From assembly GCA_907163375.1 (NCBI GenBank), contig CAJQUW010001458.1, positions 1 to 64,000 on the forward strand: 64,000 nucleotides of DNA. Reading direction: 5' to 3'. Below the pieces are notes generated by a model that was not told the origin of the DNA, did not search any database, and saw only the letters and a program-made list of their open reading frames with translations. A program made the position numbers and the translations under genes. Of the stretch, positions 34,924-61,158 are shown piece by piece. This DNA comes from Prostheceraeus crozeri (Eukaryota; Platyhelminthes; Polycladida; Euryleptidae). Position 1 is the stretch's first letter, and the number at the start of each line of letters is the position of its first letter.

Positions 34924-35111
34924 AGGTTTTTTATCGTGTCATTTTGATTCAGCAGCTTGTCAGGAACTAACCGCATACTCAGCAACTGAAGTCAGGAATA
35001 TGATAAGGTCATTGTGACAGCCAATCAGAGGTCAGATGCGCCTCCAGCCAATAGATAATGCGCAGTACAACTTAAGATAAATTCACGTGAGTGAAATTAG
35101 TTCTGCGCCAA

Positions 35112-36806
35112 ATGTCTGAGGTGATAAGTCGTCGCACGCGAATTCCGGTTCGTCGTTATGGATTTGACGTAGATTTGGACGTTGACTCTGATCGATCTGA
35201 AGATGAGGATGAACAGGAATATGTTTCTGCTAGTTCTTCGAGTGACAGTGAGTCTGGTGACATCGTCGAAGAGGAAGAAGAACTTGATTCCTCAGAAAGC
35301 AACTGGCATTTCGTGACGTCTGATAGTGACACTTGTCCTGTTCTTCAATTTGAAGGGGAGACTGGCTGGAAGGTAAATTCCCCTAGGAATACTTTGGAAG
35401 ATTATTGTGACATTTTCTTACCCATTGAATTATTCGAAAAGTTAGCCAAATGGACTAATAGCAGAGCAAGAATTTACATCGCCGAAAAAATTCTCACGAC
35501 TGAAGACGAGTTTATTTGGAAAGATACTAATCCTCATGAAATGAGGAAGTTTTTCGCGTTGTCACTACTGATGGGAGTAATCAAGAAACCGTATATAAGA
35601 CATTACTGGGCTACTGAGCCACTTATGTCGACGCCATATTTCTCCATGTGCATGACACGTGATCGGTATTCGCAAATCCTTCGTTTTCTGAGGTTCAGTG
35701 ACCCTTACAACACTCAAAGTGGAAATCAGTCTTCACGCTTGAACGATTTGGATAGAGAAGTTGCCGAACTATGTTCTCAGTATCTTCCGGCTGCTGAATT
35801 GTCTTTGGATGAATCTTTGCTTTTATACAAAGGCCGGCTTCGGTTCAAACAGTTCATTCGCATCAAGCGAGCTCGTTTCGGGATCAAGATTTTTATCCTT
35901 TCTGACATTGATGGATATTTGATGGCGCATGTGATTTACTATGGTGCACAAACTGACTTCACTTGCGATGAGAATGACATCGATCTTCTCAAACCGAGTG
36001 AACGCATTGTCGCTGTGTTATTATCGAGAGCTGGATTGCTTGACAAAGGATATGTTGTTACCTTGGATAATTGGTATTGCAGCGTTCGGTTGGCCGAATA
36101 TCTTACGACGAGAAAGACCGGCTTGCGTGGTACCATCCGAGCAAATAGAGGCGTTCCAGCGGAATTGAAGGGTAAGAGCATGAATCCCATCTCAAGTGCA
36201 TTCATTCGACGTGATAACATGTTGATCGTTCGCTTCTGTGACAAAAGAGATGTCTATCTCATTTCGACAGTTGACAAAGCTGGAACGCTTGAGAAAGAGA
36301 GATTTCTGCCCGGTGGCAATGTATCCAATTATGAAAAGCCAACAGCCATTGATACGTACAATAATACAATGTCCGGTGTTGACAAATGTGATCAAATCAT
36401 TGCGGGCGTGACTTGTGTTCGCCGAACGCATGCCTGGTTCAAAAAACTTGGTTTGCATATGTTGCAGCGACTATTATTGAACGCGCATGTTTTGTACTGC
36501 CGAGAACAAGAAAAAATCAAATTCTTGGACTTTACACGAAGAGCTATTTTGCATTTTACAACTGTTACCTCTGAGCCTCACAGAAAACGATTCAGGTCAG
36601 GTCAAATGAACACCGATGATCGCAAGGAAAATCTTCATTGTCCTTCAAAGTTCCCTCCTACCGAAAAGAAAGAAAAACCCCAGAGAAGATGCAGAAGTTG
36701 TGTAGCTTCCAATCAAAGAAAGGACACCAGATACTTTTGTGACACGTGTACAGACAAGCCACCACTCTGTCTGAACTGTTTTCCAACTTGGCATCAATCT
36801 TTATAA
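35112..36806 (+). CDS. piggyBac transposase
   Basis: ATG at 35112 gives 564 aa; the frame is open 21 bases further upstream only through a GTG. An acidic Ser-rich N-terminus (residues 25-65) is followed by the DDE/D transposase domain. Catalytic Asp candidates lie in LSLDESLL (about residue 239), VTLDNWYCS (about 325) and MSGVDKCDQ (about 425). The C-terminus has a Cys-rich zinc domain (CRSC...YFCDTC...LCLNCF). Length is typical for the family. It excises and inserts the element at TTAA without footprints. No stop or frameshift is visible. Confidence 0.95.
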   Translation: MSEVISRRTRIPVRRYGFDVDLDVDSDRSEDEDEQEYVSASSSSDSESGDIVEEEEELDSSESNWHFVTSDSDTCPVLQFEGETGWKVNSPRNTLEDYCDIFLPIELFEKLAKWTNSRARIYIAEKILTTEDEFIWKDTNPHEMRKFFALSLLMGVIKKPYIRHYWATEPLMSTPYFSMCMTRDRYSQILRFLRFSDPYNTQSGNQSSRLNDLDREVAELCSQYLPAAELSLDESLLLYKGRLRFKQFIRIKRARFGIKIFILSDIDGYLMAHVIYYGAQTDFTCDENDIDLLKPSERIVAVLLSRAGLLDKGYVVTLDNWYCSVRLAEYLTTRKTGLRGTIRANRGVPAELKGKSMNPISSAFIRRDNMLIVRFCDKRDVYLISTVDKAGTLEKERFLPGGNVSNYEKPTAIDTYNNTMSGVDKCDQIIAGVTCVRRTHAWFKKLGLHMLQRLLLNAHVLYCREQEKIKFLDFTRRAILHFTTVTSEPHRKRFRSGQMNTDDRKENLHCPSKFPPTEKKEKPQRRCRSCVASNQRKDTRYFCDTCTDKPPLCLNCFPTWHQSL

Positions 36807-43752: not shown

Positions 43753-44378
43753 AGTAGTAAGGAATGCTCCCAACTGCGCACAGCACCCCCCCTCTGGAGC
43801 GCGAGTTGGGTTGTTGTGGTTCTGAGTCGTCCGGCCGGGTGTGTCTTGGGCGGCGGTCTTTGTTTTTGGTGTGTAGGATTGGTTGTAGGGTTATTTTGTG
43901 TTTAGATTTGATCTGATGAAATTCTGCGTCAACATGTTGTGTTTCTTGGGTGTAGGTGTGGTTTAGGTGTGTTTTTGCGTGTTTTTGAGTGAGAAACTGA
44001 CTGTAGCGGCTAAACGAAGCCTCGTATGTGAAAATGGACGGCAGATTTGGACTTTTTGGCCAATTTTGGGTCTAGCAGAGTTGTTTTCAGCGTCATAGGG
44101 CTAAAACTGAAGAACTTCGACCCCCCCCTCGGCAGCGATCTTCCAACTTTGGTTCTAGAAATGGTAGAGAGTCGCGCGATAACTCGTTTGAAAGCCAAGA
44201 GTGCCACAAATTCATTGGAAAGCACAGTTTGACCCTGGCTTCCTTTGCTGAGACTTGAGAGTGACATTGAGACTTTTGGTCATGTTGGAGAGCCGTCAGA
44301 GGTTGAGTTTTGTGTTTTGGGCTCCACCGGTCGAACGAAGCATCGGACGAGAAAACTAAGACCAGATTTGGATTCAGC
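43753..44378. repeat. Left TIR of Polinton copy B
   Basis: Inverted match to the right TIR throughout. It lacks about 24 bases present at 61048-61075 and contains only one unit of the 320-bp tandem block that occurs three times in the right TIR. Confidence 0.93.
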
Positions 44379-45103
44379 GTCAAATTTTGGATAACCAATG
44401 TCTAATCCCCTTATCGATTGCATATTCACAGGATATATGAGTACGAGTTCGGGAGAGGAATCTCACTAAGTTGAGAAAATGACTACAGGTAAGTCGTTTC
44501 TCTTGAGGTCCGATATCGGACTTCTGACTTTTCATTGCTGATATCAGCTAAGGAGTCAGACTTATAGGTTAGTCAGTATAGCATGACTGACCATTTGATG
44601 ACAGCAGGCCGAAATCTTCAAACGGCTATAGCTTTGCTTCAACAAGTCCTTTAGACTTGATTCAAAAACGTTTGACAGCTCATGATGTGCTGTAGGTGAC
44701 AGACTACTTATAAACGTTTTATGAGTAGTACTAAAAATACTGAAAATTTAAATTCGTATTTAATGATGATGATTAAAGTTTTTGAATAAAAAGCAGTGGT
44801 TTATGAGTCTCTGCGACTTGGGATGTTTCCTCTTTTAAATAACTCCACCGGTTTTCATGTCAAACTCGGGGCCCGGATACCAACACAGTGACATGACGCA
44901 CGCTCTGTCCGCCCGAGGTTGGATTTGTGGGTCGAGGCCTTGGAGCTGGGATAACATCCCCTCTGAGTAATGCCTGTAACGGATTCAAGAGCCTAACGCC
45001 TAGACGACTGCTATCAAATGTTTTTGGACTTAGTCTTTCAATGTATATCAGCAAGTAGTATCCTATAAACACTTGCTATCAAATTTTTACTCTATCTTTA
45101 CAG
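44379..45103 (+). other. 5' leader and intron of the first rightward Polinton gene
   Basis: ATGACTACAGGTAAGT at about 44489-44504 contains a strong 5' splice site. A polypyrimidine/TTTACAG acceptor ends at 45103, eleven bases before the ATG of the coiled-coil gene. The short ATG frame in the first exon does not join in frame, so I read it as a 5' UTR exon. Copy A shows the same design, a start-proximal intron, at 3187-3266. Confidence 0.5.
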
Positions 45104-45113
45104 AATCGTCACT

Positions 45114-46250
45114 ATGACCAAAATGATTAATGCGCGTATGCTCATCGGCAAGTGTAGCTGCGGCCGTATTGCCAGAGGCAGGGAGTTGAAGAAACACATC
45201 AAAGAGGGGACGGTGGGCGAGCATGTGAGGAAAGTGTTGTTGAGGGTGTGTGTGCATCATAAGGTAGTATGTGAAGATGGGAGTGATGTAGAGTTCATTA
45301 GGAAACATAGCCAACGCCCTAGTGGCAATATTAGTATGTAGGGGCTTAAGCCGTGGTTTGAGGGAGTATTGTTAGATATGGAAGAGGTTAGAGTGGCAGT
45401 GGCGACGATTGAGGGTGCGATGGGGAAGAAAGGTGTTACCAAGGCGACTGATGAGGGTTTGAGTGAGGAAGAAGTGGAGTTGAGAGGGGACATCAAGAAG
45501 CCTGATGTTGATGTTGATTTGGATGACGTGTTGGAGGAATTGTTTGGAAACTTTGGTGATCTTGAGGAGAAGGGGAAGGATGAGGGACAGGAAGTGGGTA
45601 AGCCGTTGCTGGCATCATCGCCTCGGAGGGAGGAAGGGAACACGAGGGATGAATATGTAAGGATGAAGGATCGATTGAGGGCGGTTCAGGAGAGGAATAA
45701 AGTATTATTGATGCGGAATGAGAAATATATGGTGAAAAGAGAAGAGTTAGAAAGTATGAGGCAGAAGGAGAAAGAGTGGATGGCGGAAAGGAGTGAGCTG
45801 ATGAAGAAAGCAAGTTTGGTGAGTAGTCTGCAGGCGAATTTGTTGAGGAAGGATGATGAGATAGATTGGATGCGAAGCGTGGTGAAGGAACAGAGGAAGT
45901 GAAGAGTGTGAACAAGAGGTTGGTGGCTGAAGTGGAGCGATTGCATGAGCGTGAGAAGTTTAGAAAAAGAAGAGTGTATGAAGTCCATCTTCCCCTCTTC
46001 GAAAATAATGTGTGCGACGCCCAACCATCACACGTGACCCCAATCAGACGCAGCAATGCTACGAGGGCGACGGAGTCCGATGTCTCCATATGAATATGGA
46101 CATCACTGGCGAGCTTGAGGACTTCGTCGTCCGAAAAGTCCGGAAGAAAGTTCCCAGTAAGTTACTTCAACATGATCATTTCCTTACCGCATCTAATCTC
46201 CTATTCTTTTCCTTTCAGAGTTTTTACATCAGCAGGAGGATCGCTTTTGA
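45114..46250 (+). pseudogene. Spliced coiled-coil gene of the Polinton, interrupted
   Basis: From ATG 45114 an N-terminal basic segment with Cys residues (KCSCGRIARGRE) leads to an in-frame TAG at 45339-45341. The same frame continues to 45902 with an acidic stretch (DVDVDLDDVLEELFG) and then a long Lys/Glu/Arg coiled coil (about 45650-45900). Coiled-coil coding continues in another frame (45900-46000). The last part (about 46060-46156, GELEDFVVRKVRKK) joins through a 62-nt intron (GTAAGT 46157, TTTCAG to 46218) to a short exon ending TGA at 46248-46250. The histone-type stem-loop begins 20 bases later. Function unknown; one stop and one or two shifts make it a probable pseudogene, unless some joins are further introns. 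Confidence 0.55.
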
Positions 46251-46264
46251 TCCCGAGAACGCCC

Positions 46265-46291
46265 CAAACGGCTCTTTTAAGAACCACATGG
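46265..46291 (+). terminator. Histone-mRNA-like 3' stem-loop, copy 1
   Basis: CAAAC, then stem GGCTCT (46270-46275), loop TTTA, stem AGAACC (46280-46285), then ACA, followed by purine-rich GAGCAAGAG (46291-46299). Metazoan replication-dependent histone mRNAs end in GGCTCT-TTTC-AGAGCC with ACCA after it and a CAAGAAAGA-type element downstream. One of the six pairs is a C-A mismatch here. It lies 20 bases after a stop codon, the usual histone spacing. Confidence 0.7.
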
Positions 46292-46329
46292 AGCAAGAGT
46301 GATAGTACCTCCTTGTGTTTTGCTCTGGA

Positions 46330-46343
46330 CAGACTTCGGTCTG
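46330..46343 (+). ncRNA. Second conserved hairpin, copy 1 (TTCG loop)
   Basis: CAGAC-TTCG-GTCTG, a five-pair stem with a UUCG tetraloop, 45 bases after the histone-like stem-loop. The duplicate at 46804-46817 has the same stem with a TTTG loop. Both are followed by ACTGAATCTA-type sequence. Role unknown. Confidence 0.55.
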
Positions 46344-46397
46344 ACTGAATCTAACACATAATTAGAAAGACTGAGTCATGTCTTTGTATCAGAGGGG

Positions 46398-46405
46398 TAT
46401 ATAAA
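46398..46405 (+). promoter_or_regulatory. TATA box
   Basis: TATATAAA preceded by GGGG and followed about 38 bases on by a tiny ATG frame (46442, 13 codons with two ACATCTAGGA repeats). It indicates a transcription start between the two stem-loop blocks. Confidence 0.5.
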
Positions 46406-46614
46406 CCATTGCTTCCCTTTCATTTTCATTCTATACTCCATCATGAAAACATCTAGGACGACATCTAGGATGAAAACATCCTGACAAGCCTCGGCTTAGC
46501 CCGAGAAATTTATTTATTGAGTTTCTAGAGATGGAGAAGCGAGAGCGAGTCTATAACAATCTTGCTTAAATTGGCTCATCAACAACTGACAATGCCAATT
46601 CAGCAGAGTGGGGG

Positions 46615-46620
46615 TATATA
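46615..46620 (+). promoter_or_regulatory. TATA-like box
   Basis: GGGGTATATACC, like the site at 46398 in its G-rich left flank, and upstream of the second stem-loop. The only ATG frame after it is four codons long. Confidence 0.4.
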
Positions 46621-46736
46621 CCGCCCTCTAACAGTCAGCTTATAGTAGAGGAGTCGATGCCGCTGACATAGATAGATTACAAGTCACTCTCAGCGGAATC
46701 GGCCAAACCTAAGTCTATTCATTTCCCGAGAACGAA

Positions 46737-46761
46737 CCAACGGTCTTTTTAAAGACCACCA
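46737..46761 (+). terminator. Histone-mRNA-like 3' stem-loop, copy 2
   Basis: CCAAC, stem GGTCTT (46742-46747), loop TTTA, stem AAGACC (46752-46757), then ACCA: a perfect six-pair histone-type stem-loop with the canonical flanks. Compared with copy 1, pairs 4 and 5 have both partners changed (T-A to C-G and C-G to T-A), so pairing is conserved while sequence is not. Confidence 0.75.
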
Positions 46762-46830
46762 TGGCGTAAAATATGATAGTACCTCCACGTGGTTTGCCCT
46801 GGACAGACTTTGGTCTGACTGAATCTATCA

Positions 46831-47195
46831 TACAAACAAAAAATGAAATCACAAAGTTGTATCTACTATCAGTCAACTTAAACGTTGCATGTTAAGGAGG
46901 ATTTCGGTATAATTCTTCCTGTTGGTGGACGTTCTCTCTTGAGACAGCGGATGATATCGTAGCGATAAGTCTGGCAAGGGAGTGTGTCATATTTTAGACC
47001 GAAACCTCTGGGACAACTCATGTTGGGCATTTGACACAGTTCTCAACGTAGCACTTTGAACGCCAATCGGTTAAGTCTTAGCTATCTGCCACAGTTTACA
47101 TTTCAAATTCTCCATTGCGAACGTTGTCTGAGAATAAGCCATGAGTTGTTTTAAGAACTGCCTTTATCATTGAGGCTAAATGATGAAGGGATGAA
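46831..47195. other. Upstream of the polymerase frame
   Basis: No clear frame. The usual N-terminal region of Polinton polymerases may be decayed here. Confidence 0.4.
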
Positions 47196-50100
47196 ATGAG
47201 AGGTCACTGTTACGCCACACGTATACAAAATCACTTTCTATCTTCTCTAATGGTGCGATCTCTTTTGATAGAAAGTAGACCGATTATAAATGTGTTAACT
47301 AACCCCATATTCTATCATGATGTACAGAGCAACTGTTTCCGTAGAAGCAAATATCATGAATGGGAGAATGAATTGAAGTTTGATGACTGCAATAGCGAAG
47401 ACATGAAGTCTAAAGATATAGAGAAATTTGAAAAATTAAATGAAATTAAAATAGTTGTTCACATCTGGCAAAAGGGGCCTAAGGGTGTGCGCTACAACAA
47501 CCATTCATCAATTTATGATCGGGTAGTCAATCTCCTGCTAGTATATCGAAATGATAGTGAAAATTGGCATTACTGTGGTATTCCTAAAATGACTCGACTA
47601 TATTCCCACTGAACATCTAGAAGAGGAGAGTATTTCATATGTGACCGTTGTATGCGCCCCTTCTGGTCAAAAGATAAATTTGAAACACATTATGAATGGT
47701 GCAAGCGAGGTAAACTGCAAATAGAATGCATACCCAAAGATAAAGAGTTTTCATATACAGAGAAAGGTGATGAATTAAGTCCTCTTCGTGTCATCTATGC
47801 TGACATCGAATGCTATATTGATGATAACACCCATAAAGCGGCAGCCATATCATGTTATGAGGTATGGCATGATTACTTCAAAAATAAAAATAATAAAATG
47901 CACGTCTGGCAAGGTGAGGACTGTATACATAAATTCTTACAATTCCTCGAAAGCGCTGTCAAATTTCAGCAAAAATATGACAGTGAACTCCAACGCAGAT
48001 CATTGAATATGTCAGCAGAAGATCACGTAAAATTTGGAAGTTGTAAAGTCTGCCCAAAATATAATAAAACGTTTGATGAAGATAAAATCAAGAAAGTGCG
48101 CAACCATGATCACATCACTGGTAAATTTGGAAACGCGCTATGTACAAGATGTATTTTTCCACTGAGACTGAAACGGCGTACTCTACCCGTTATTTTTCAT
48201 AACTTCAAAGGTTATGACAGTCATATGATAATAAAAGGGGGGTTAGGAAAAATGAAAGAGTGGAAGTTAAGTGTAATAGCACAAACGAGCGAAATGTTCA
48301 TGGCCATGACAGCAAAAGTAGCAGTTGACAAGACTAAAGAAAATAAGACAGTCTATTTTGATATAAAATTTTTAGATTCCTATCAATTCATGGCTTCATC
48401 ACTAGCATCTCTCGTTCAAAATCTTAAGTCTCTTCCACTAACTCAAAATTTGAAGAAACAATATCCTAACTTGACGGATGAAGTCATCAAACGCAAAGGA
48501 GTGTTTCCATATGCATACTTTGATAACATTTCTAAACTTAGTGAGACTTCTCTTCCATCAATAGACAAATTTAAAAATGACTTGACTGGTGTAGAATGCA
48601 AGGTAGAAGATTACAATCATGCTCAAGTTGCATGGAAAAAATTTGCCTGTCAAACGTTTAGCGATTATATGATCGCCTATCTAAAATTAGATGTGTTTTT
48701 GCTGGCTGATGAATTTCAGGAGTTTCGACGAGTGTCATTAGAAGAAGATAAATTAGACCCAATCCACTTTATCAGTCTTCCAGCCATGTCAATCCAGTCT
48801 GCTTTTAAAATGACTGGAGAGACCATCCATCTTTTGCAAGATCCAGAGATGTATAATTTATTTGAACGAGGAATTTGCGGTGTTCTCAAATTTGTAAATA
48901 GGCATCAAATAAAATCAAAAATAGTAGATGATGATCAGATTCATCTAAAGTACTATGACCAGAATAATTTATATGGTAGTTCACTGTCCAAACCTCTACT
49001 TCACTCTGAGTTTAGCTGGTTGGGTGATAATGAAATTCAGCATTTCTCCAACCCTTGAAACATACTAGCTATTCCAGATGATGGTGATTGGGGATATTAT
49101 TTTTAGATAGATCTTATCTATCCAAATAGTATTAAAAAATAAAACTGTGGATTTACCACTTGCACCCGAATCAGGCGAAGTGACTGAAGATATGTTTTCG
49201 GACTTTATGAAACAATTTCTTAAAGATTTAGAAGGGAGTGGACAGCCCAAGTATAAGCCTTGCCGTAAACTTTTGCTTACTCAATTTGATAAAGAAAATT
49301 ATTTAGTCCACTTCTCTATCTTAAAATTTTATTTAGAAATAGGGATGATTTTAAAAACAGTTCACCGCATTATCAAACTTAGACAGAAAGCCTTTCTGAA
49401 ACCTTATATTGATAGCAACAGCTAGAAACGTGCACTAGCCCAAAATAATTTTGAAAAGGATTTTTATAAATATAGGAATAATAGTCTTTTTGGTAAGACG
49501 ATTGAGGATGTTAGAAAGAGTATTAAGTATAAACTTGTGAGTCATAATGATAAATTTCAAAAGTTAGCGACATCACCTCTCTTTATTGATAGAGATATTA
49601 TAGATGATGAGTTGGTTGGTGTTAAAATGATAAAACCAGAAGTAGAGTTGTGCAAGCCCATCTACATTGGACAAGCTGTGTTAGATTACTCCAAGCTTGA
49701 AATGTATCAACTCTTCTACAGAATATTAAAACCATGCCCTCTAATTAAAGACGTGCGTTTGCTGGGTGGTGATTCCGACAGTTTCTTTTTAAGCATCGCT
49801 GCTCAGAAAGAGTTAAATTTCAATGAAGTAGGAAAATCTTTAGAAAAATATTTTGATACATCAAATTATCTTACAGATCACCCACTATACTCTACTAAAA
49901 ATAAAGCAAAGTTAGGATGCTTTAAAGATGAAATGGCAGGAAAGGAAATTAAGGAAATGATTCTTCTTCATCCTAAAATGTATTCTATGAAACCAAAAGA
50001 CTCCAGTGACAGTATTAAGCGCGCAAAAGGCATATCTATATCGATTGTTGTAAATATAAAACATAGGGCCTATAAGATGGCCTACATAAATAAGAACAGA

Positions 50101-50301
50101 ACGTTTTTCAACATGACCATCTTAAAATCAAAGACACATGAGGTAAAAACTCATACATTTAGGAAGCGAGCACTTTAAGCGTGGGAGGATATGAGGTGTT
50201 TGATAGGACATAACATATCTCTTCCACATGGACATCCTGGCACAGAGATATCACCGCCCAAAAGAATTAAACTCACACTACCACATTCAGGAGATGTGTA
50301 A
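47196..50301 (+). pseudogene. Protein-primed family B DNA polymerase of the Polinton
   Basis: Exonuclease and polymerase motifs appear in order. ExoI is YADIECYI (Asp at 47802), preceded by a Cys/His pair region. HDHITGK follows (about 48107). ExoII is HNFKGYDSH (about 48200) and ExoIII is YLKLDVFLLADEF (about 48680). Pol motif A is DQNNLYGSSL (about 48960), motif B is NNSLFGKTIED (about 49480) and motif C is GGDSDSF (about 49770). It ends near 50301. Three in-frame stops (TGA 47610, TAG 49423, TAA 50176) and a frame change between about 49058 and 49147 break it, and no long replacement frame exists, so it is inactive as read. In intact elements it replicates the DNA using a terminal protein. 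Confidence 0.95.
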
Positions 50302-50773
50302 ATGATTCATTCTTAAATCAGTATTTTGATGTTTTTTGTTGATATTCATTGTTGCTTTATGTATCGGTTTAGATTGCACTTTCTTGTGAATATATGCCTA
50401 CACTCAGTTCATTCCCACTATATCTGTGAAAAGACTTTCCCACTTTGTCAACACTTCTTCAAAACACATTTTCATACATATCTTTTTATTTCAATAAAAT
50501 TTTACAATGACTTTACTTTGTTTTCCGAAACACTTAAGTTATGAGGGATTTAGTATTTTTCACATGAATGCACTCATATAAGCCATTTGCATTTTTGAGA
50601 GAAAAAGACGGGATAGTTTGTTTGATAACAGGATGGTAGAAAATAGGTTTAAACATCTTTTCAACGATTCCATATGAAGCGTCTTTATCATGAATGAAAT
50701 TACGTAAAAAGTATTCTTTTTTCTCACCAACAGAAATAGGTGAAATCAGATCACTTTGAATGTAGAGATGTTG
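50302..50773. other. Convergent intergenic spacer
   Basis: Lies between the polymerase 3' end and the leftward structural-like gene. A plus-strand AATAAA (50494-50499) is a plausible polyadenylation signal. No histone-type stem-loop here. Confidence 0.55.
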
Positions 50774-52070
50774 TTAATGTTTATCAAGTGTCATTGGTAT
50801 TCCTACACCAATCGTGTATGAAGTAGCAAACTTATCTTGTAGCAATGAAAAGCCAAAGAGTTTTTTCAAATTGTCGCTCAATTGACATTGAATGTGATCA
50901 CCCAGCTTCAGAGCAGCACTTTCATTTTTAATTGAAAACGAAATGTGATGTGCCTTTGCATCATATCTACTTTTCAACAGTTGCTTCAACTTATGTTGTA
51001 TATATGGATTTATGACACGAATAAAGTTTTCAACTGTATTGTATAGACGCGGCATTGTATTGATACTAACTTTAGTTTCTTGATAAGATTGGTAAATTTT
51101 CTTGATGCGATCACCATAGATGTCCACCACCATTCACCATTAACTGAATCAGCTTTAGTGTGATATTCATGAGAAGCGTAAACCAAACCGCTTCCAATAA
51201 TAGGCGATACATGTCTTACAAAATGACGCAAGGTTGGAGAGAAATAAACTGTGAGTTTGTCATTATATTTCTGAATAACCAACTAATCCTTCTCAGCCAT
51301 GACTTTCTCTCCATACTTCTTACCCAAAGTCTCATTCCATCGTTTCACTAACTCAATAAGTGTCAAAGGCTTGACACCACGCTTTTTCAAAATGATGCGT
51401 TCTTCACATTCTACAACATCTTCATCAAATATTTCAAATTTATAATGAAATTTGTTTATTCGGCTTGAATAGATTTTTGTAACATTTGCAATAGCCATTG
51501 ATGTCAGATGCAGACTGTATCCAAAACGGAGATGTGGATAGAATTTATTATCCAACCTCAATGTAAGACCTTTAGTAAAAGAGTGAAAACGATAGAAGTG
51601 TCTCCCGTGCCTTTCATAGATAGTAAACTCCTAAGCTTTCTGACCCTTATTTTTCATAATAGAAGCATTGCCACTCTTGAATGCCTTAATGATTTTATCT
51701 TCATCTTATGATCCATAATAATCCGATTCTAACTGATTCCATTCATAATTCCATTTTCTATCTGATGCTAAATTGTATGGAAACTTGAATGCATTATTCA
51801 TCGTTATTCCATCATGGGTGCGAGGAGTCAATACCATTTCTTCCAATTCAATCACATTCTGAATATTACTATCATAGCAAATGCTGTAAACACCTACTTC
51901 CCATTTACCTTCTAAAAGTAATGGACGATTTAATTCTACTCGATAGTCTGATGGTTTATTATTGGGAAATTTATTCATAGAAGCATTACTGGGTAAGTAG
52001 ATTAGGAACGAATCCTTATTTTCACTTTCCACATCATTCACATAGGAAACATATATTTCCACACTTTTTC
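50774..52070 (-). pseudogene. Structural-like Polinton protein, paralogue 2
   Basis: Minus-strand coding from about 52062 with the N-terminal block FLIYLPSNASMNKFPNN followed by GKWEVGVYSICYDSN, then 51561-51283 and 51282-50774 ending GVGIPMTLDKH. The pieces are in the same frame to 51010 and are separated by stops (near 51704, 51628 and 51283); the last part shifts frame. The LPSNAS...FPNN plus GKWEVG pattern occurs in a long protein found in many Polintons; I take it as a candidate virion (penton or fibre-type) protein but do not assign it firmly. Paralogous to the next gene. Confidence 0.6.
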
Positions 52071-52071
52071 A

Positions 52072-53482
52072 TTAATTCTTCATTCGAAAATGGAGTGTGA
52101 TACTTGTCACAGCATCTTTATGAAAAGGAATCAACGCACCAGCATCGTCATAAATTGCAAAATCAATTTGTGGCATATAGTTTGATTTCATGTTTGTATA
52201 ATGCACTTTCTGAAACGTATGCTCAGATAGAGTACTATTGATTTTTGGTTGGTAGGGTATCATTGCTAGAAGTGGAGCTTCAACATCTCCCACACGTACA
52301 TCTTCACCAATATTGGAATATACATGTATCTGAAAATAGTTAATACGACGCGATAACGATATGTTCGCGCTAGCTTTTGTTACAGTACCACTTTTAAAAG
52401 TCTTTTGATCAAATCCCAAAATGTCAATTAGGGTATTGTCCATAATCAGCTCAATATTTTTCCCACTTACACTAAGAGACAGAACACCTTCTTTTTCAGA
52501 AAAAGATATATGCTGTTCATTAATTGCTTCATTCAAATAATTTATAGCCAATTTCACTGAAGTGATAATGCGAGGTGTCAACACTCTTGTTTTATGTAAG
52601 ATACCACCTAAAGGATCTATACACTTTCTGCATAAAGATACGGACCATTCTGTATCAAATTGATTTGAACTATTATGTCCCAGATAGCGGATATTAAATT
52701 TTCCGTGAAGAGCTGCAGAACGATGTCGCAAGAACTGATGAAAATCTTCTGAACAAATCAATGCTAAATCATCATCCTTTAGTTTATTGATTACGACATT
52801 ATTAGACCCTTTGTTGTAAGTTAATGTTGCCACTTGTTTACCATCTACTCGAAGGTGATAATTAAATTTCTTCAATAGTGCTTCAGGAGTCATGTTCGTC
52901 TTTCTTGCTTTAATCACAAGCTTCTTCACCAACGTCTTTTCATTTTTCGGAATAAGATCCAGTTAATAGGCTTTCTCTTCATAAATTAAATTTTTGCAAC
53001 CTCTTGGATAGTAATTAGCTTTATAATTATCATAGCTTGTCAAGGCGCTAGCAAAGTAACCTAAATCATTTCTTAAACTCGGACTCAAAGCAACAATCCA
53101 ATCTTCATCAACTGCATGATACATATAATCATATTCACCATTGTGGGGAGTAAACTCGACAATGTGTCTACATGCTTTATTCAGGAAATATAAATACGAA
53201 TTTTTTACATGTTGAGAAATCTTTCTTCGGCCATTTCGGAATGTAAAATCGACATCCCTCTTCACACTGATAGGCATCTGTACGTCTCATATTAATATTT
53301 ATCATTTCATGATCAAAAGTATAGACATAGTTACTGTGAACAACTTGGGTAACGCCTACTTCCCACTTCCCATTCAGCTGTTGTGTATTATCAATGGGAG
53401 TAGAAAAGATAACAGCTCGATTGCCAACAAATCTATTTGTTGCCACATTGCTAAGCAAAACATGATAGAATAACATTTTCAT
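52072..53482 (-). pseudogene. Structural-like Polinton protein, paralogue 1
   Basis: Starts at ATG 53482. The N-terminal NGKWEVGVTQVVHSN parallels GKWEVGVYSICYDSN in paralogue 2. A frameshift near 53230 leads to 53277-52963, a TAA at 52963-52965 follows, and the same frame then runs 286 codons to 52072 (including LIDILGFDQ and a C-terminal ITLHFRMKN). Two lesions in about 470 codons. The pair probably arose by tandem duplication within the element; the gap between them is only about 10 bases. Confidence 0.6.
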
Positions 53483-53519
53483 TTCGGTTCAATCTTAATG
53501 ATATCACGAAGGATTTGGA

Positions 53520-54070
53520 ATATTTCAAAACGTTGAAATTCATCTCCTTGGGTAATCAAGTTTGGCTTCAACATCACAGAAATGAAATTCAAATCTATCA
53601 TTCTCATCTCTCCATCTATTTCTCATTTCGCAGATGTAATTGGGAAAAATATGAAAGATGTGTACAGCACTCCATTATGTCATTCATTCGACGCGAGTTC
53701 ATCGCATTGCCACGCAAATCTTAATCAGACACCATCTTCAACACAATCTCACACTCCATCATGAAGACTTGGAAATTAGATTTCCTACAATGTGTTGAGA
53801 TTGACCATGAACGAAACGTATGTTTCTAAGATTTTACTGGAAATGGAGGAAGACTATTTGCTTTATCATATCGACATTTTCAGTCTCTAAATCATATTGT
53901 GAAGGACTTAAAATACTTCTATATGAAAAAACATTCACGCATAGGAAATTGCATATGGTTGTGACTCAACAAACAGCGAATTCAAATCTTTCATTCACAA
54001 CTTTCTACCTACTTCACATTTCATCAAGGCAGTTGGGAAAAGTATAAAAGGAAGATACATCGCTCTATTT
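53520..54070 (+). repeat. Duplicated promoter-like region before the TBP-like gene
   Basis: 53580-53680 (AATTCAAATCTATCATTC...TTCTCATTTCGCAG...TTGGGAAAAATATGAAAG) is echoed by 53978-54070 (AATTCAAATCTTTCATTC...TTCACATTTCATCA...TTGGGAAAAGTATAAAAGG). Only the second copy keeps a good TATA box. The first may be an inactivated promoter of a lost gene. Confidence 0.6.
54038..54047 (+). promoter_or_regulatory. TATA box of the TBP-like gene
   Basis: AGTATAAAAGG lies about 40 bases upstream of the ATG at 54086, consistent with a very short leader. Confidence 0.65.
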
Positions 54071-54085
54071 ACCCATTTCGTGATC

Positions 54086-54632
54086 ATGAAACGTCATCGC
54101 TACACCATCGTCAACATTCTTCGACGCATCAGACTCTACACGAAAATCGATCTCGCAACATTACATCAACAAATTCCAAATAGCAAGTATTATCCGGATC
54201 GACCGCAAATGTTAGTGGTGAAGATGAGCAATTTTCGGAATCTTCTACTCTTCCCAAATGGAACTGTTCAGATTCTCGGCGCCCTTTCTCATTCATCAGC
54301 GCGGTTTAATGCGCTTAGAGCTACAGAAACTACTACTACGGATATGGAAGAGGGACAAGTGTGTGATGTCGAATCTGACTATGGACAATATGGTGATCTC
54401 TACTCAATTGAGTGAAGATGTATCGTTTTTAAAGATTCATACCAGCAGTTTCAATTTGTGTTATGAACCAGCATTTTTTCCCGCGGCTCTCATTAGTTGC
54501 TGGTTACCTGTACATGTTGCAATCTTTCATAATAGTAAAGTTTTCATTACTGGACTGAAATCTGAAATACAAGCAGATACGATCCTAGACTATCTAATCG
54601 AGTATGTACATAACCAACGGATTGTAAAATAA
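54086..54632 (+). CDS. TATA-binding-protein-like protein, one frame change
   Basis: The first frame (ATG 54086; the frame is open two codons more via GTG) encodes the first TBP repeat: YTIVNILRRIRL, KIDLATL, an NSKYYPDR block and NLLLFPNGTVQILGA. The second repeat is in another frame to TAA 54632: MDNMVISTQL, CYEPAFFPAAL and AIFHNSKVFITGLKSE. The order and spacing match the two halves of the TBP saddle (about 180 aa together). Of the four DNA-kinking Phe positions, three seem kept (in LLLF, AFFP and AIF); the one in repeat 1 is Pro. The frame change lies near 54330-54385, close to a CTACTACTACGG run, in the linker between repeats. It may be a mutation, a sequencing error, a tiny intron or a shift site. 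TBP nucleates transcription at TATA boxes. Confidence 0.75.
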
Positions 54633-54690
54633 AAACAATTTTTATTCCAACATGATGCTTTTTATTTCAAATCATTATAGAACATACAGA

Positions 54691-55122
54691 TCATCTTTTT
54701 ATTAGAAGATGGATTACATGAAAACCTTTGAATAACAGATTTAAATTGGTGTAATGTGAACGTTTTAAAATGAAGTACAATATGAAGGCGCCACAAGTTG
54801 ATGAAAGTGGATGTTGCAGTATGCGCTGATTTCTTTGATATTGACGAGTGTGCTTTCTCAACCACTGCTGTGTTGGTATATTCGGAGGTTGAGGAAGAGA
54901 GTCAAATAGTTCACCACGTCTGTCTTTTCCAATAAAGATAGATTTCCAATGCTGACCTTCTAAATTCTGTGAATGAGTGTTCAATGCGATAAAGATGGGA
55001 TACTGTTTTACAGTAGTGGGTAAGGTATCTAGCGAATAGATATTATCAAAAGTTTTCAACGTAGCTTCATCCGCATTACGCTGCACTTTAGTCTTAATAT
55101 CGTCAGCATTCAACCAACTCAT
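54691..55122 (-). CDS. Adenain-like maturation cysteine protease
   Basis: 143 aa, ATG 55122-55120. The catalytic layout matches adenovirus-type proteases of Polintons: His in GQHWKSIF, Asp in ELFDSL, Gln in RILQHP and Cys in SSTCGAFILYF. N-terminal MSWLNADDI and the LPTTVKQYP block are also typical. It would cleave capsid precursors during assembly. Its start overlaps the capsid stop by one base (TAATG). The frame is intact and the length is normal. Confidence 0.92.
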   Translation of the reverse strand: MSWLNADDIKTKVQRNADEATLKTFDNIYSLDTLPTTVKQYPIFIALNTHSQNLEGQHWKSIFIGKDRRGELFDSLPQPPNIPTQQWLRKHTRQYQRNQRILQHPLSSTCGAFILYFILKRSHYTNLNLLFKGFHVIHLLIKR

Positions 55123-56399
55123 TAGCGATTGTTGTGAAGAATCACGTCACGATACTTAGTTATTTCAATACTTGAATCAAAGACTGCATACATTAATACA
55201 TTGATCGTCTCCGTTAGCGTTGTTTTGAACTCCAGATCCAAGCGAATATTATGAGGAACGCTAGTTTGACGATAAGGTGCACTAATATCGCTGTCGGCAG
55301 TCAAATCAAATGCATAAATAGTATAGCCATTCTTAAACTCTTTCATTGAAAGCCCGTTGGTGTCGTCTGTATTGTAAAAGCCAAAGACATTCATATAGTC
55401 AAGATAGCTGCGCAAAAATTGATAAGAAGAGAAGTCTGGTCTATAGGGCGGTCCAGGATGACTAACACCACTTACATGCAAAGCAATTTCACTTAAATTG
55501 TTGTGCTTGAAGTTGAAAGGATTCTTCTTGACATTACCATTGAATGCATCATTTTCAACCATTGCTACCATGAGGAGCTTTGGCGCTTCCGATGGAAAAA
55601 GACCATCTTTCATAAAACTCTTTTGATCTTTAGGAATTGTAAATGTGAGAAGCTTTGTATGTTGAATGGGATAAATGGCATTGTTGCGGTTAAGACCCTC
55701 AGCATGTCCTCTAATTACACTTGGATTAGCCACCATTCGACGAATGTATGCTGTAATATCTTCCACATGAATTTTAAATTTCACAACTGAAGCATATGCA
55801 TTCAACACAAATTCAGGCTTATTCAATGCAAGTTTGAGTCGCATACTGGTATTACAGAGTAAAAATTTTGATTGTCTGAAGAAGTCTAAATTAAGTGGAC
55901 CATACAGCTGACATACTATACTATCTTTAATCAAAGCAGATTGCTTTACAAAACCAATGTTTGTCTCACTATCAAATAGTGCTGCTTGATCTCTATACCA
56001 TCCCATTGCTTCCATATGACTGTTTTGAGCTGCTGGATGAAACTGTGATAGAGCATTCAAATATGCTTTATAGGGATAATCGCTTTGACCACCTTCCACC
56101 TGTTGCTCTCCAATAGTTAGAGAAACATCGCGAAATAATGTAGCCAGCAGTAAATTGTTCAGACCAACTTTATGTGCATCTTCAATTTTAGTTCCATCTT
56201 CTTGTTGAATTCTAAACTTCACATCAACCATCGTATAACTCAAATCAATGATATCATCGCTAGCGCCAGGAATAACAAATTCAATAGGACCAGTATTCTC
56301 AAGTGTATGAGGTTGATAATCTACAATACTTGAACTAAGAATATCTGTCTGTATTGCTTGTTGATCAAACAAACAAAAGCCTGAAGTTTTGCACTCCAT
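55122..56399 (-). CDS. Major capsid protein (Polinton hexon-like, F54H12.2 type)
   Basis: 425 aa, intact, ATG 56399-56397. It has the conserved LYGPLNLDFFRQSKFLLCN block and a following MRLKL, recognised in Polinton capsid proteins annotated as F54H12.2-like, whose fold is a double jelly roll. The N-terminal part carries IEFVIPGASDDIIDL. Normal role: trimeric capsomers of an icosahedral particle. It stands between the minor virion gene (2-base gap) and the protease (1-base overlap), the usual structural module. No lesion visible. Confidence 0.88.
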   Translation of the reverse strand: MECKTSGFCLFDQQAIQTDILSSSIVDYQPHTLENTGPIEFVIPGASDDIIDLSYTMVDVKFRIQQEDGTKIEDAHKVGLNNLLLATLFRDVSLTIGEQQVEGGQSDYPYKAYLNALSQFHPAAQNSHMEAMGWYRDQAALFDSETNIGFVKQSALIKDSIVCQLYGPLNLDFFRQSKFLLCNTSMRLKLALNKPEFVLNAYASVVKFKIHVEDITAYIRRMVANPSVIRGHAEGLNRNNAIYPIQHTKLLTFTIPKDQKSFMKDGLFPSEAPKLLMVAMVENDAFNGNVKKNPFNFKHNNLSEIALHVSGVSHPGPPYRPDFSSYQFLRSYLDYMNVFGFYNTDDTNGLSMKEFKNGYTIYAFDLTADSDISAPYRQTSVPHNIRLDLEFKTTLTETINVLMYAVFDSSIEITKYRDVILHNNR

Positions 56400-56401
56400 G
56401 A

Positions 56402-56743
56402 TTAGAAGTTATGACAGCGCATTTGTTTAGCACTTGATGAAAGATTACAGCGCGCGCGACGTTTGCGTGAATGCCTTTTCTTAGTTTTTTTGAAGCTCGC
56501 TTCTTACCACCTCCGCCCTGTTATCTTTTTCTTCTAACATTCATTCGTTTAGGTGCTTTTTTTTGTTGAGTAGCATTAAAAGTTTGCTGTAATGTTCTTA
56601 AACCGCGTTCCTTCCCACGATTTAGTAAAGTACTCTTTACATTTTTACCACTGGTAATATCATTAACAACATCACCAGCAAAAAATTGCACCCACGCTAC
56701 TTAGATAGGAGGGGCGTGAATAAAACGATGCAGTCGGATTCAT
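56402..56743 (-). pseudogene. Minor virion protein (pVI-like), frameshifted
   Basis: Begins MNPTASFYSRPSYLSS at ATG 56743, a start shared by Polinton minor virion proteins, then shifts frame near 56695. The amphipathic centre FFAGDVVNDITSGKNVKST follows, and after another shift near 56520 a Lys/Arg-rich tail (KKRHSRKRRARC) ending TAA 56404-56402. The basic tail suits contact with packaged DNA; the middle suits a capsid-lining or membrane-active role as in adenovirus VI. Two frame changes in 110 codons imply inactivation. Confidence 0.65.
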
Positions 56744-56783
56744 AACTTAGACCTTGACATTACAAGTTACATCTTTGCATAAA

Positions 56784-57872
56784 TCACTGAGAATCGCGTA
56801 GATGAAAGATGTCTGCACGACGCATCCAAGAGTTCATACTTGAAGGATAACCGACCCATTTAACAAGACACCATTCTTCACCTTGTAGTTTCTTACTTCG
56901 AATGATTTTCTCTACTAAATATGTGTCACTTTGAGTGACCAACTCAATCTCATCACGATGAAAGCTACCATCAATTTCTTCATTATCGTAATCTTTCAAC
57001 TTGTAAGTTTTTGGGGAGTCTTCTTTATTGATACTTGAAACTGTGAAAATTTCGTCTGTCCAATTCGGGAGATAACCTTTGGCAAAAACACTCTTAACTT
57101 TTGATATGCGAACTTTATCATCTATTTTCACATCACTTTTTGCATTATTACGCTTGCGTTGGAATGTTTCACGCACTCTATCTACGTTGTCAGCATTCAT
57201 ATTCACTGGTCTGAGTCAAATAGAACGATGAATAGAGTGATTGTAGGCATGTAGCGTATCTTGTAGAACCTTTGTCCAATTTTGTGTTAAGTTGGCAGTG
57301 AAATGTCGCCACAAGCGATTTTTTAATGTGCGATTAAAAGATTCAACTAGTGCAGCCTTATAAGCGCTCTTTACACTAAACAGCTCAATATCATATCTCT
57401 CAAATAATCTTCCCACATGCTGATTTTCGAACTCTTTTCCTTGATCACTCTGAATTCTCTTTGGAATACGACCCTCTCGGAAAATTGACTGGAATGCCTC
57501 TGCTGCTCGTTTACCTTCTTTAGTTTTTAAAGGTTAAGCCCACGCATAACGCGAGAAAATATCAATTACGGTTAAGATAAAATTGTGTCCCGAGTTATGT
57601 TTTGAAATAGCGGCAATGTCACACAAATCTGCTTGCCACTGTTCATCAATTTCATGAACAATATAATGGCGGGTGCGGTACTTCTTTTTCGCTTGTTTGT
57701 GGAGTGTATATGTAGCTTGACCCTTTAACCATTGTTTAACTTGTGATTGTGGAAGAGCGCTCACTTTTGACAATTTCTTTATAAATGCAAATCCTGCAGG
57801 ATGTTTTACATCATAATATATTGACTTTAAAAGTTCATCCGATGACGACTGACTCATTCTCCTTCTTCTCAT
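56784..57872 (-). pseudogene. Retrovirus-like integrase with C-terminal chromodomain
   Basis: ATG 57872. One frame throughout, interrupted by TAA 57534-57536 and TGA 57216-57218. An N-terminal helical region (DVKHPAGFAFIKKL) precedes the RNase H-fold core. Catalytic Asp lies in QWQADLCD, the second Asp in RIQSDQGKEF and the Glu in LVESFNRTLKNRLW. After an SH3-like region, YLVEKIIRSK...WCLVKWVGYPSSMNSW is a chromodomain, which may direct insertion to particular chromatin. It makes the 6-bp duplication seen at the ends. Otherwise full length (about 360 codons). Confidence 0.93.
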
Positions 57873-58038
57873 GTTTTTGCTTTCTTACCTTTTTGCATTT
57901 ACAGCAACCACAGGATTCATGGGATTTACGTTTACATTGCTTAGGAATCTCATTGTGAGAGCTGGCACAGCAAGTACAAGTTACAGTTACATTTACTTCC
58001 GGGGGATCTTTACATGGTAAGCAACACATCTGCTTCAT
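57835..58038 (-). CDS. Small Cys-rich Polinton protein
   Basis: 67 aa, ATG 58038, with eleven Cys in the first 48 residues (CC..C, CTCC, C, CGCCKC) and a Lys-rich tail. This suggests a zinc-binding or disulfide-knotted mini-protein. It overlaps the integrase start by 38 bases in another frame and follows the previous gene after 4 bases. Function unknown. Confidence 0.6.
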   Translation of the reverse strand: MKQMCCLPCKDPPEVNVTVTCTCCASSHNEIPKQCKRKSHESCGCCKCKKVRKQKHEKKENESVVIG

Positions 58039-58042
58039 ATTA

Positions 58043-58507
58043 CTAGTCTGAGAACATGTATGTCTTTGGAGGAGTTCTTCTACGTCGTTCTCTTCCCCTT
58101 GTTTGCTTGATGGGTGTGGGAGGGGATTTGGAAGGTGATCTCTTAAACAAATTCCTTGGCATTTTCATTTTACTCTTAACCGGTGAAGTAGATGAAGTAG
58201 TATCAACTGCTGAAATAGAATCAAGTTCTTTCAATGTTTCATTATTCAAAGCAAATTTTGGAACATTGTGCTTTTTCAATAGTTTAAGAAAGTAAGACCA
58301 ACCAGGTGGGACATAGCCTTGACGGCGCTTTCTGCGTGTTCTATACTGAATCAAGTCTTCATAACGTGAAGCGTTAATAATTTCATTATCATCTGAAATG
58401 ATTTCACCTCTATCATTCACAGTGAGATATGGTTCAATGCTGTTGAAAAAGGACATTGCATGTCCACGAGATTCTAAAGGTGTAGCAGTCGAAACAGAGT
58501 CACTCAT
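58043..58507 (-). CDS. Conserved-looking Polinton ORF154
   Basis: 154 aa, intact. The middle has an YRTRRKRRQGYVPPGWSYF block and a following LLKKHNVPKFAL; the tail is Ser/Pro/Arg rich with SPSKSPPTP and RRRRTPP, suggesting phosphorylation and nucleic-acid contact. The ATG directly abuts the stop of the upstream ORF. I do not recognise the family. Confidence 0.65.
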   Translation of the reverse strand: MSDSVSTATPLESRGHAMSFFNSIEPYLTVNDRGEIISDDNEIINASRYEDLIQYRTRRKRRQGYVPPGWSYFLKLLKKHNVPKFALNNETLKELDSISAVDTTSSTSPVKSKMKMPRNLFKRSPSKSPPTPIKQTRGRERRRRTPPKTYMFSD

Positions 58508-58651
58508 CTAATTCTTCAAACTTTTCAATTCTTCGACAGTTTTCGATTGTAATAATACAGCACGATGTGGATCTTTGATATGCGCATTTTGCTGATAATT
58601 TAATTCATTCTTATAAATTTGATTTGCGAGAAGTTGTCTTAATTGTTGCAT
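58508..58651 (-). CDS. 47-aa ORF upstream of ORF154
   Basis: ATG 58651-58649, stop TAG 58510-58508 immediately followed by ATG of ORF154. The Gln/Asn/Leu-rich product (MQQLRQLLANQIYKNEL start) looks helical. No family recognised. Its exact abutment with the next gene argues that it is real, or a regulatory upstream frame. Confidence 0.5.
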   Translation of the reverse strand: MQQLRQLLANQIYKNELNYQQNAHIKDPHRAVLLQSKTVEELKSLKN

Positions 58652-58707
58652 GGCAGTCAATTACACATATTCATCCTGAGGAATAACAACCATGCGAGAA
58701 TAAGATC

Positions 58708-59325
58708 TCATAGTTTGTAGATAATCATGGGAGTTTTCAAAATATCACTTCGCAATCTAAATTCTTCCGGACACTTCTGTGTAAAATCAATGAATAAGTA
58801 ACCGTGCGGCTTTTCAGTTGCTGCTTGAAAAAATTCAATTAAGGCTTTTGAACCTCTTGGCGCTACTTGTCGCGCTAAAATTTCAAGTTGACTTCTATCT
58901 CGTGGATTCTTAAAAATAGCGTAATAGTGTGTATTCAAGTTTCGTGTGCGGGTTTCTTTCCCATCAGGAAACAAATTCTGCGTGATATAGATTATAAAGC
59001 ATCTTTTGTGATGTGCTGCGCGAGTGAACATATCTGTAACATCTTTAGAATTCTTGCTTTTTTATAATAGATCATCCAAAACAACGACATAATTGGACTG
59101 AATCTTATCCACTGGAATAATTCCTTCATTTCGAATAAAGTTACGACGTTGCAATTCCTGAAAGAGTGACGGTTGATAATTGCCATGACACCAAATCACT
59201 CGATTGATAGGTTCCTTAAACAACTCTTTTCTTTTATCTAGCAAATTCAGCGTGAAAACAGTTTTACCTGCATGGGATGGACCTGATTTAGTCAGAACTT
59301 TATCACATTGAAGTCTGAAATCCAT
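58708..59325 (-). pseudogene. Packaging ATPase (FtsK/HerA, A32-like), one stop
   Basis: ATG 59325. Walker A GPSHAGKT, Walker B VVVLDDLL, then TAA at 59062-59064, after which the same frame continues with ITQNLFPDGKE, FKNPRDRSQLEILARQV and GYLFIDFTQ to 58708. About 205 codons, normal for Polinton ATPases. In intact elements it pumps DNA into capsids. The homologous codon in copy A is AAA, so a single A to T change made the stop. Confidence 0.93.
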
Positions 59326-59356
59326 TTTAATACTTTGGAATTCAATATTTGCATAA

Positions 59357-59707
59357 TTAACGCTTAAAGCCAAAGATATTACCCAATACATCGCCCACTA
59401 CAGGAGCTAACAGCGGAAGTAACACTGAAAGGAAACCACTCTTTTGTGTTAGAGTTTCCCACTTTCTTTGAGACGTAACTTTAGTATTGAAGATGAATCG
59501 CAATTTTGTAGCATGTCGCTTTAGTAACTTTCGTTGTTGTGGTGATAATTTGTTTGTCCTTAAACTTCTCACATGAGAAACAATTTCTCGAATAAATTTA
59601 TCATTAGCATGTCGTATAGCATTACATCGCTGATTTCCTTTCATTCGTTGAAGAGCTCGAATGGTCACAGAAAATTTTGAAGACTTTCGACTTTTGCGTT
59701 TCGCCAT
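59357..59707 (-). CDS. Small basic protein with hydrophobic C-terminus
   Basis: I choose ATG 59707 (context AAAATGGCG), giving 116 aa; the frame is open 25 codons further only via GTG or weaker ATGs. The N-terminus MAKRKSRKSSK and centre are strongly basic. The last 25 residues are hydrophobic (FLSVLLPLLAPVVGDVLGN), ending GFKR. This matches small Polinton proteins proposed as core or minor virion components; role inferred. It precedes the ATPase by 31 bases. Confidence 0.65.
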   Translation of the reverse strand: MAKRKSRKSSKFSVTIRALQRMKGNQRCNAIRHANDKFIREIVSHVRSLRTNKLSPQQRKLLKRHATKLRFIFNTKVTSQRKWETLTQKSGFLSVLLPLLAPVVGDVLGNIFGFKR

Positions 59708-59860
59708 TTTTCTCTTAACAATTGTTACAACTTGATTTTTCCACATTTGCATAGGTGCTAACTTTAATGACAGAAGTGACACCCAAAATGAGCTATATCA
59801 CAGTGATGCAAAAATGCTGGATTCTCATTGGATGTGCTTCTCATTGGCCAATGACATCAA

Positions 59861-61158
59861 GCTGAATCCAAATCTGGCCTTGTTTTTCTCGTACGATGCT
59901 TCGTTTAGCCGCTGGAGTCCAAAACACAAAACTCAACCTCTGACGGCTCTCTAATATGACCAAAAGTCTCAATGTCACTCTCAAGCCTAAGCAAAGGAAG
60001 GTAGGGTCTAACTGTGCTTTCCAATGAATTTGTGGCACTCTTGGCTTTCAAACGAGCTATTGCACGACTCTCTACCATTTCTAGAACCAAAGTTGGAAGA
60101 TCGCTGCGAGGGGGGGGGTCGAAGTTCTTCGTTATTTGGCCTACGACTTAGAAAACAAGTCCTTTAGACCCAAAAGTGGCCAAAAAGTCCAAATCCGACG
60201 TCCATTTTTACGTACGAGGCTTCGTTTAGCCGCAATAGACCAAAACTGACCAATTCAACCTCTGACGGCGCTCTAACATGGTCAAAAGTCTCAATGTCAC
60301 TCCCAAGCCTCAGCCAAGGAAGATAGGGTCTAACTGTGCTTTCCAATCAATTTGTAGCACTCTTAGCTTTCAAACGAGCTATCGCACGACTCTCTACCAT
60401 TTCTAGAACCAAAGTTGGAAGATCGCTGCCGAGGGGGGTCGAAGTTCTTCAGTTTTAGCCCTATGACGCTGGAAACAACTCTCCTAGACGCAAAATTGGC
60501 CAAAAAGTCCAAATCCGCCTTCCATTTTCACGTACGAGGCTTCGTTTAGCCGCTATAGACCAAAACTGACCAATTCAACCTATGACGGCGCTCTAACATG
60601 GTCAAAAGTCTCAATGTCACTCCCAAGCCTCAGCCAAGGAAGATAGGGTCAAACTGTGCTTTCCAATCAATTTGTAGCACTCTTAGCTTTCAAACGAGCT
60701 ATCGCACGACTCTCTACCATTTCTACATGTAGAACCAAAGTTGGAAGATCGCTGCCGAGGGGGGGGGTCGAAGTTCTTAGTTTTTAGCCCTATGACGCTG
60801 GAAACAACTCTGCTAGACCCAACATTGGCCAAAAAGTCCAAATCCGCAGTCCATTTTCACGTAAGAGGCTTCGTTTAGCCGCTACAGTCAGTTTCTCACT
60901 CAAAAACACGCAAAAACACACCTAAACCACACCTACACCCAAGAAACACAACATGTCGACGCAGAATTTCATCAGGAGACCAAATCTAAACACAAAATAA
61001 CCTTACAACCAATCCTACACACCAAAAAAAGACCGCCGCCCAAGAACAACCACGACGGTTGACCAAGACAAACCCGGCCGGTCGAACTAGAACCACACCA
61101 ACCCAACTCGCGCTCCAGAGGGGGGCTCTGTGCGCGGTTGGGAGGATTCCTTACTACT
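59861..61158. repeat. Right TIR of Polinton copy B
   Basis: 1298 bp, matching the left TIR in inverted orientation, but about 670 bp longer because the inner block is repeated. Ends ATTCCTTACTACT. Confidence 0.93.
59890..60880. repeat. Three tandem units of about 320 bp within the right TIR
   Basis: The word CGTACGATGCTTCG/CGTACGAGGCTTCG/CGTAAGAGGCTTCG starts at 59890, 60211, 60531 and 60860, giving periods of 321, 320 and 329. Each unit includes CAAACGAGCTATNGCACGAC and a poly-G run of varying length (60112, 60435, 60760). The third unit has an extra ACATGT. Confidence 0.93.

Follow-up and report, generated by a model that had tools for sequence, protein, structure and literature searches.

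According to the excerpted sources, core histone genes are intronless (PMC5011920), and histone mRNAs are cleaved 4-5 nt past the stem of their 3′ stem-loop (PMC7026596). In C. elegans an AATCC element occupies the position of the downstream element, which varies between animals (PMC1924863, as excerpted). Among mobile elements, the closest described system is Tm1-HH, a set of Mutator/Foldback transposons of root-knot nematodes that carry a histone hairpin and include Cg-1; in the excerpt describing them, the best conservation is reported 3′ of the hairpin, in the very part that would be cut off (PMC3169594). Here we describe two histone-type hairpins from a 64-kb window, by which we mean the whole stretch of DNA that was analysed, and both of them are located inside a Polinton/Maverick element. 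To our knowledge, Polintons/Mavericks and adintoviruses have not been described as having histone-type 3′ ends, and a search of open-licence papers for “Polinton” together with “histone stem-loop” found nothing.

The Polinton at 43753-61158 (17,406 bp, no strand assigned) is a complete but decayed copy. It is bounded by terminal inverted repeats with the termini AGTAGTAAGG...CCTTACTACT, and the 6-bp target site duplication TCGAAC flanks both ends, the combination by which Polintons are recognised. The original prediction had placed the hairpins within such an element, and this context is borne out by the inverted repeats, the termini, the target duplication and the relatives of the DNA polymerase B gene (polB; 47187-50301, plus strand). 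We call the copy decayed because polB is broken by stops and because the minus strand carries protease, integrase and chromodomain pieces of which the chromodomain alone exceeds its Pfam cut-off (Chromo, 28.9 bits); the integrase match (rve, E = 0.0014) and that of an Ulp1-type protease (Peptidase_C48, E = 0.0023) fall below theirs. Two further ORFs, at 55122-56408 and 58708-59397, have no Pfam match, and going by size and place they may be the major capsid protein and packaging ATPase genes. At 59791-60887 the terminal repeat of the right end contains a ~320-bp unit in three or more tandem copies, and at the left end (44001-44390) two diverged parts show a spacing equal to that unit.

The limits of polB were drawn from its relatives and ORFs, with its end read by eye. 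A 468-aa piece has 91 listed homologues, many of them carrying PF03175, as is characteristic of a protein-primed DNA polymerase B, and the pieces of the window itself gave no Pfam polymerase match. The closest relatives (P0001-P0033) come from metagenome contigs and are 41-73% identical. The nearest named match, at 50%, is a fragment in a cyanobacterial MAG, probably contamination, and the named animal matches include soft coral, wasp and oyster at 31-37%. Named protein relatives, both of polB and of the piggyBac transposase described below, are mostly animal, which we count in favour of a histone-type reading of the hairpins. Contig scans used a polB alignment of 26 of the 91 homologue proteins. 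The scan of genome contigs recovered one distant polB locus (L001, 33%, 3,092 bp), and in viral contigs no relative was found by protein scans or by strict exact patterns, the latter saying little on looser stem-loops.

Outside the Polinton the window is a repeat-rich region, with a reverse transcriptase, a transposase of Tc1 type and GIY-YIG matches in three pieces (two below cut-off, the group presumably Penelope-like) at 5732-6829, 11939-12787, 13341-14477, 15806-16516 and 22637-24343. An open piggyBac transposase of 571 aa lies at 35091-36806 on the plus strand; it is 98% identical over 62% to a metagenome-contig protein, and animals are among its named relatives in the best 120 of 125 listed hits. 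Near-perfect palindromes around GGAGTCCTATCA...TGATAGGACTCC at 16791, 39291 and 40711 probably represent a small inverted-repeat element. Two equal tRNA-like matches on the minus strand (22462-22538 and 25506-25582; 23.3 bits, below the cut-off of 29) probably represent a SINE of tRNA origin or else a repeat that was duplicated.

The hairpins are situated between a gene that we refer to as gene X and polB, in two direct repeat units of the plus strand (46251-46356 and 46724-46830). The original prediction of two blocks, each with a stem-loop, agrees with what we find: the loop is TTTA in both, and the stems have histone-like flanks, CAAAC or CCAAC upstream and ACA or ACCA downstream. A six-pair stem had been claimed for both blocks as well; stem-loop 2 (46742-46757) indeed forms a perfect stem of six pairs, whereas stem-loop 1 (46270-46285) forms five, with C.A at pair 3. 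The 16-mer GGYYYTTTTNARRRCC, which we take to be the histone stem-loop consensus, has two mismatch-free matches in the 64 kb when both strands are searched, and these are exactly the two stem-loops; in shuffled sequence, matches with at most one mismatch numbered 0.34 on average, and two or more appeared in 6 of 100 shuffles. Perfect six-pair hairpins with a four-base loop occur at 10 places in the Polinton, and the one at 46742 alone has the histone pattern. Both copies carry the sequence pattern of the Rfam model RF00032, and the hairpins are unlikely to be products of chance.

All 4227 Rfam families were searched over the whole window, giving 17 matches of any family at E ≤ 10. The only two matches to RF00032 fall on the hairpins: 46265-46310 (21.3 bits, E = 0.27) and 46737-46781 (30.5 bits, E = 9.9e-5, a value of about 1e-4 per window that is not extreme, since a genome scan covers many windows). 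The covariance model proposed as a check therefore matches both copies, but at scores under its gathering score of 34 bits, and at the gathering cut-off the whole window has no RF00032 match. When folded as a 26-mer, copy 2 reaches -7.0 kcal/mol (z -5.05, 0 of 200 shuffles as stable) and copy 1 folds weakly (-2.7 kcal/mol, z -1.94, 15 of 200). The optimal fold of the whole 106-107-nt units keeps stem 2 and loses stem 1, and the units show no extra stability over shuffles (74 of 200 as stable, z -0.36, for unit 1; 47 of 200, z -0.66, for unit 2).

Compensatory changes had also been predicted at pairs 4 and 5. Placed in structural register, the two copies do differ on both sides of these pairs with pairing kept, but the statistical support is modest (p ~0.04 if only transitions are allowed). 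Five of the 16 stem-loop positions are different, all by transitions, with five and six pairs retained; pair 3, where a single side has changed, does not pair in copy 1. When five random transitions were introduced into copy 2, two or more compensated pairs arose in 4.1% of 400,000 trials, and with arbitrary substitutions in 0.45%. By our own reading of the alignments, a gapped alignment of the copies erases part of the compensatory pattern. No stronger signal can come from a single dead element that offers a pair of copies, the stem being bordered by indels both before and after it.

The ~106-nt repeat occurs only in these two copies in the 64-kb window, at offsets of 473/474 nt. Among its longer parts, conservation is highest in a 57-nt element downstream of the hairpin (46300-46356 in copy 1, 46774-46830 in copy 2, both on the plus strand), identical at 51 of 57 positions, compared with 11 of 16 for the stem-loop. 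Past this element the similarity ends sharply, with 11 of the next 44 positions identical, and such an edge reflects either constraint on the unit or duplication of the unit alone. The element holds a small CAGAC-TTYG-GTCTG stem, and as RNA it is not unusually stable (equalled by 131 of 200 shuffles for copy 1 and by 41 of 200 for copy 2). Its conservation may mark an element for processing downstream of the hairpin, or a function at the level of DNA such as promoter or termination. The purine-rich CAAGAG predicted downstream of the first hairpin is present at 46294-46299, in copy 1 only. Purines occupy 13 of the 16 positions downstream of the stem in copy 1 and 10 of 16 in copy 2, with no clear U7-type downstream element; TGATAGTACCTCC would be the candidate stretch for U7 complementarity in that role.

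These measurements bear on the possibility that an unrelated 106-nt repeat, for example a DNA-level promoter or origin element, merely happens to contain a histone-like stem. Such an accident would explain why the 57-nt part is more conserved than the stem-loop, and it is compatible with the imperfect stem-loop 1, with a compensation p of 0.04 under transitions only, with whole units as stable as their shuffles and with RF00032 scores below gathering. It accounts poorly for an E-value of 9.9e-5 obtained over all Rfam families, or for stem, loop and both flanks matching together in copy 2, and we regard it as quite improbable. Other candidates were set aside. A coding repeat with a conserved frame does not fit, the six differences of the 57-nt element being spread over all three codon positions, and one frame through the whole repeat unit is not supported, since the offsets of its parts vary (473, 472 and 474 nt). 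A transposon nested around the hairpins was likewise rejected as unconvincing: the inverted pairs that flank both blocks reach just 17 nt (76%) and 18 nt (72%), unlike the ~1-kb foldback structure with composite terminal inverted repeats and 9-bp duplications of Tm1-HH.

Gene X (45069-46250, plus strand) is decayed and spread over several frames, and its product appears acidic and coiled-coil-like by eye. It is an orphan: of 245 candidates drawn from 5.8 billion proteins, one alone, P0092, is a homologue. P0092 covers 93% of a 186-aa piece of gene X (45342-45899) at 53% identity; it sits on a 653-bp metagenome contig and ends before the last exon of gene X. We infer that this exon, which the sole homologue stops short of, belongs to gene X. 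The stop codon claimed to lie about 20 bases before the first hairpin corresponds to TGA at 46248-46250, 19 nt upstream, provided that a predicted last intron of 62 nt (46157-46218) is spliced; the unspliced frame reads past the hairpin, to 46302. The introns of gene X were read by eye and the last one was checked for frame, and the gene would accordingly differ from intronless histone genes. A text search with translated pieces of the repeat and the last exon found none of them in 212 fetched proteins. Upstream of copy 2 there is no recognisable ORF and none with a known domain.

On the plus strand between 45696 and 47435 there is neither AATAAA nor ATTAAA. Elsewhere in the Polinton AATAAA is seen behind polB at 50493 (plus strand), and hexamers of these two kinds lie near the end of the protease gene at 54703, 54666 and 54646 (minus strand). 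The missing hexamers are weak evidence, since 29 hexamers per 17.4 kb lead one to expect ~2 in 1.2 kb (chance of none ~0.14), since TATAAA, a variant poly(A) signal, is present at 46400-46405, and since AATAAA lies within 80 nt of a single one among 11 ORF ends of the Polinton, that of the protease, a range at which gene X is not unusual.

Another origin of the hairpins would be passive capture, where a host histone 3′-end fragment entered the Polinton lineage and was duplicated there without acquiring a role; host fragments get captured in Pack-MULEs and perhaps in Tm1-HH. The histone-like stem and flanks and the TATA-like boxes nearby speak for such a capture, and Tm1-HH offers a precedent, its authors proposing a possible acquisition of host sequence in the excerpted part of their report (PMC3169594). 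Two observations point away from a fragment without function, namely the placement of hairpin 1 at 19 nt after a predicted stop and the pairing that was mostly kept though 5 of 16 stem-loop positions changed. A third is that Pfam scans (14 of 54 ORFs of at least 20 aa, plus the piece 45069-45338) detected no histone, although most of these pieces are short and sensitivity is low; on the same result a captured histone gene was rejected. Taken as a whole, we consider passive capture unlikely.

The spacer upstream of hairpin 2 contains the TATA-like sequence GGGGTATATA twice on the plus strand, as a letter match at 46394-46403 and as the identical 10 letters 217 nt further on (46611-46620). It also contains, at 46653-46703 on the plus strand, a 13-position hairpin with one mismatch, which may form the core of a short non-coding RNA. 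A short ncRNA gene could hence be drawn from the TATA-like box at 46611 through this hairpin to a histone-type end at ~46760, giving an RNA of ~115-120 nt. The hairpin, unpaired at just 1 of its 13 positions, is stable relative to shuffles (z -2.35, 1 of 200 as stable), as is the whole of 46630-46842 (z -2.81, 0 of 200), and no Pfam family exceeds its cut-off in the ORF pieces scanned there. The evidence is nevertheless weak, because the window has comparable hairpins at another 13 places (a total of 26 hits, counting overlaps, where 20 shuffles gave a mean of 3.8 and a range of 0-13), and upstream of copy 1 no counterpart is seen. We judge this explanation to be very unlikely.

It is the combination of structure, flanks and place that makes histone-type 3′ processing signals, having become part of the Polinton, the best reading of the two hairpins, and we give it slightly less than an even chance. 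In its favour are the RF00032 E-value of 9.9e-5 across 4227 families together with a weaker match in the duplicate, the unique pair of 16-mers, the 19-nt distance from the stop, the CA after the stem, the pairing kept despite changes at 5 of 16 positions, the sharp edge of similarity between the units, the lack of AATAAA and ATTAAA around the hairpins and the place of 46742 as the sole perfect hairpin of the Polinton with the histone pattern. It is weakened by scores under 34, by the C.A pair of copy 1 and the loss of its stem in the fold of unit 1, by a copy 2 without an ORF and with hardly any purine enrichment behind its stem, by the ordinary RNA stability of the 57-nt elements, and by a gene X that is no histone and has apparent introns. 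Our confidence is further lowered by the link between the last exon and gene X, which has no homology behind it, and by the weak contrast in poly(A) signals.

If the hairpins are such signals, the stem-loop binding protein of the host would have recognised the hairpin in the gene X transcript of the once-active element. Cleavage would have come a few bases past it, after the CA of ACA/ACCA, and the resulting message would have lacked a poly(A) tail, following the rules of histone mRNAs. Copy 2 could have ended a second, short transcript begun at the TATA-like box at 46394 or 46611, and the 57-nt stretch might have worked in processing or termination, replacing the histone downstream element. 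The sequence itself shows the hairpins, where they lie, their duplication and the Polinton around them; transcription of the hairpins, their use by SLBP and U7 and an effect tied to the cell cycle are all what we infer from the locus, and S-phase timing of a Polinton gene would follow by analogy with histone-gene ends as they are described in excerpts of two sources (PMC5011920, PMC7026596). The locus suggests that a Polinton borrowed the histone-message machinery of its host. The full proposal, in which a lineage of Polintons, themselves virus-like elements of animals, ends the message of its own protein gene, and perhaps a short ncRNA, with histone-type stem-loops such that processing and life follow host DNA replication via SLBP/U7, is offered tentatively and with considerable doubt. 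If true, it would provide a way to couple Polinton genes to host S phase, and the hairpin joined to the 57-nt element gives a bioinformatic handle for testing the idea across Polintons.

Compared with known systems, the element resembles Polintons/Mavericks and adintoviruses in its terminal inverted repeats, 6-bp duplication, polB and chromodomain (above cut-off), as well as in its integrase and Ulp1-type protease matches (below cut-off). Its hairpins resemble the 3′ stem-loop of histone mRNAs (RF00032) in having GGYYYTTTTNARRRCC, CCAA/ACCA flanks and no nearby AATAAA, and copy 1 also stands close behind a (predicted) stop codon. The CA downstream of the stems may be compared with the cleavage site given in the excerpted source (PMC7026596). 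Unlike histone mRNA 3′ ends, they are not in a histone gene, introns are predicted for the gene ahead of them, and they score 30.5 and 21.3 bits against a cut-off of 34. With Tm1-HH, as excerpted, they share a histone hairpin within a DNA transposon, best conservation on the 3′ side and residence in old, decaying elements (PMC3169594). The non-coding Cg-1 transcript of Tm1-HH is a possible parallel to a short RNA ending at copy 2 (PMC3169594, as excerpted). However, Tm1-HH elements are described there as ~1 kb long and without obvious coding potential (PMC3169594), whereas the present element is a Polinton of 17 kb that carries a polymerase gene and whose hairpin 1 stands behind an apparent protein-coding gene. 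If our reading is true, a virus-like element with a histone-type end on a gene of its own would be an exception.
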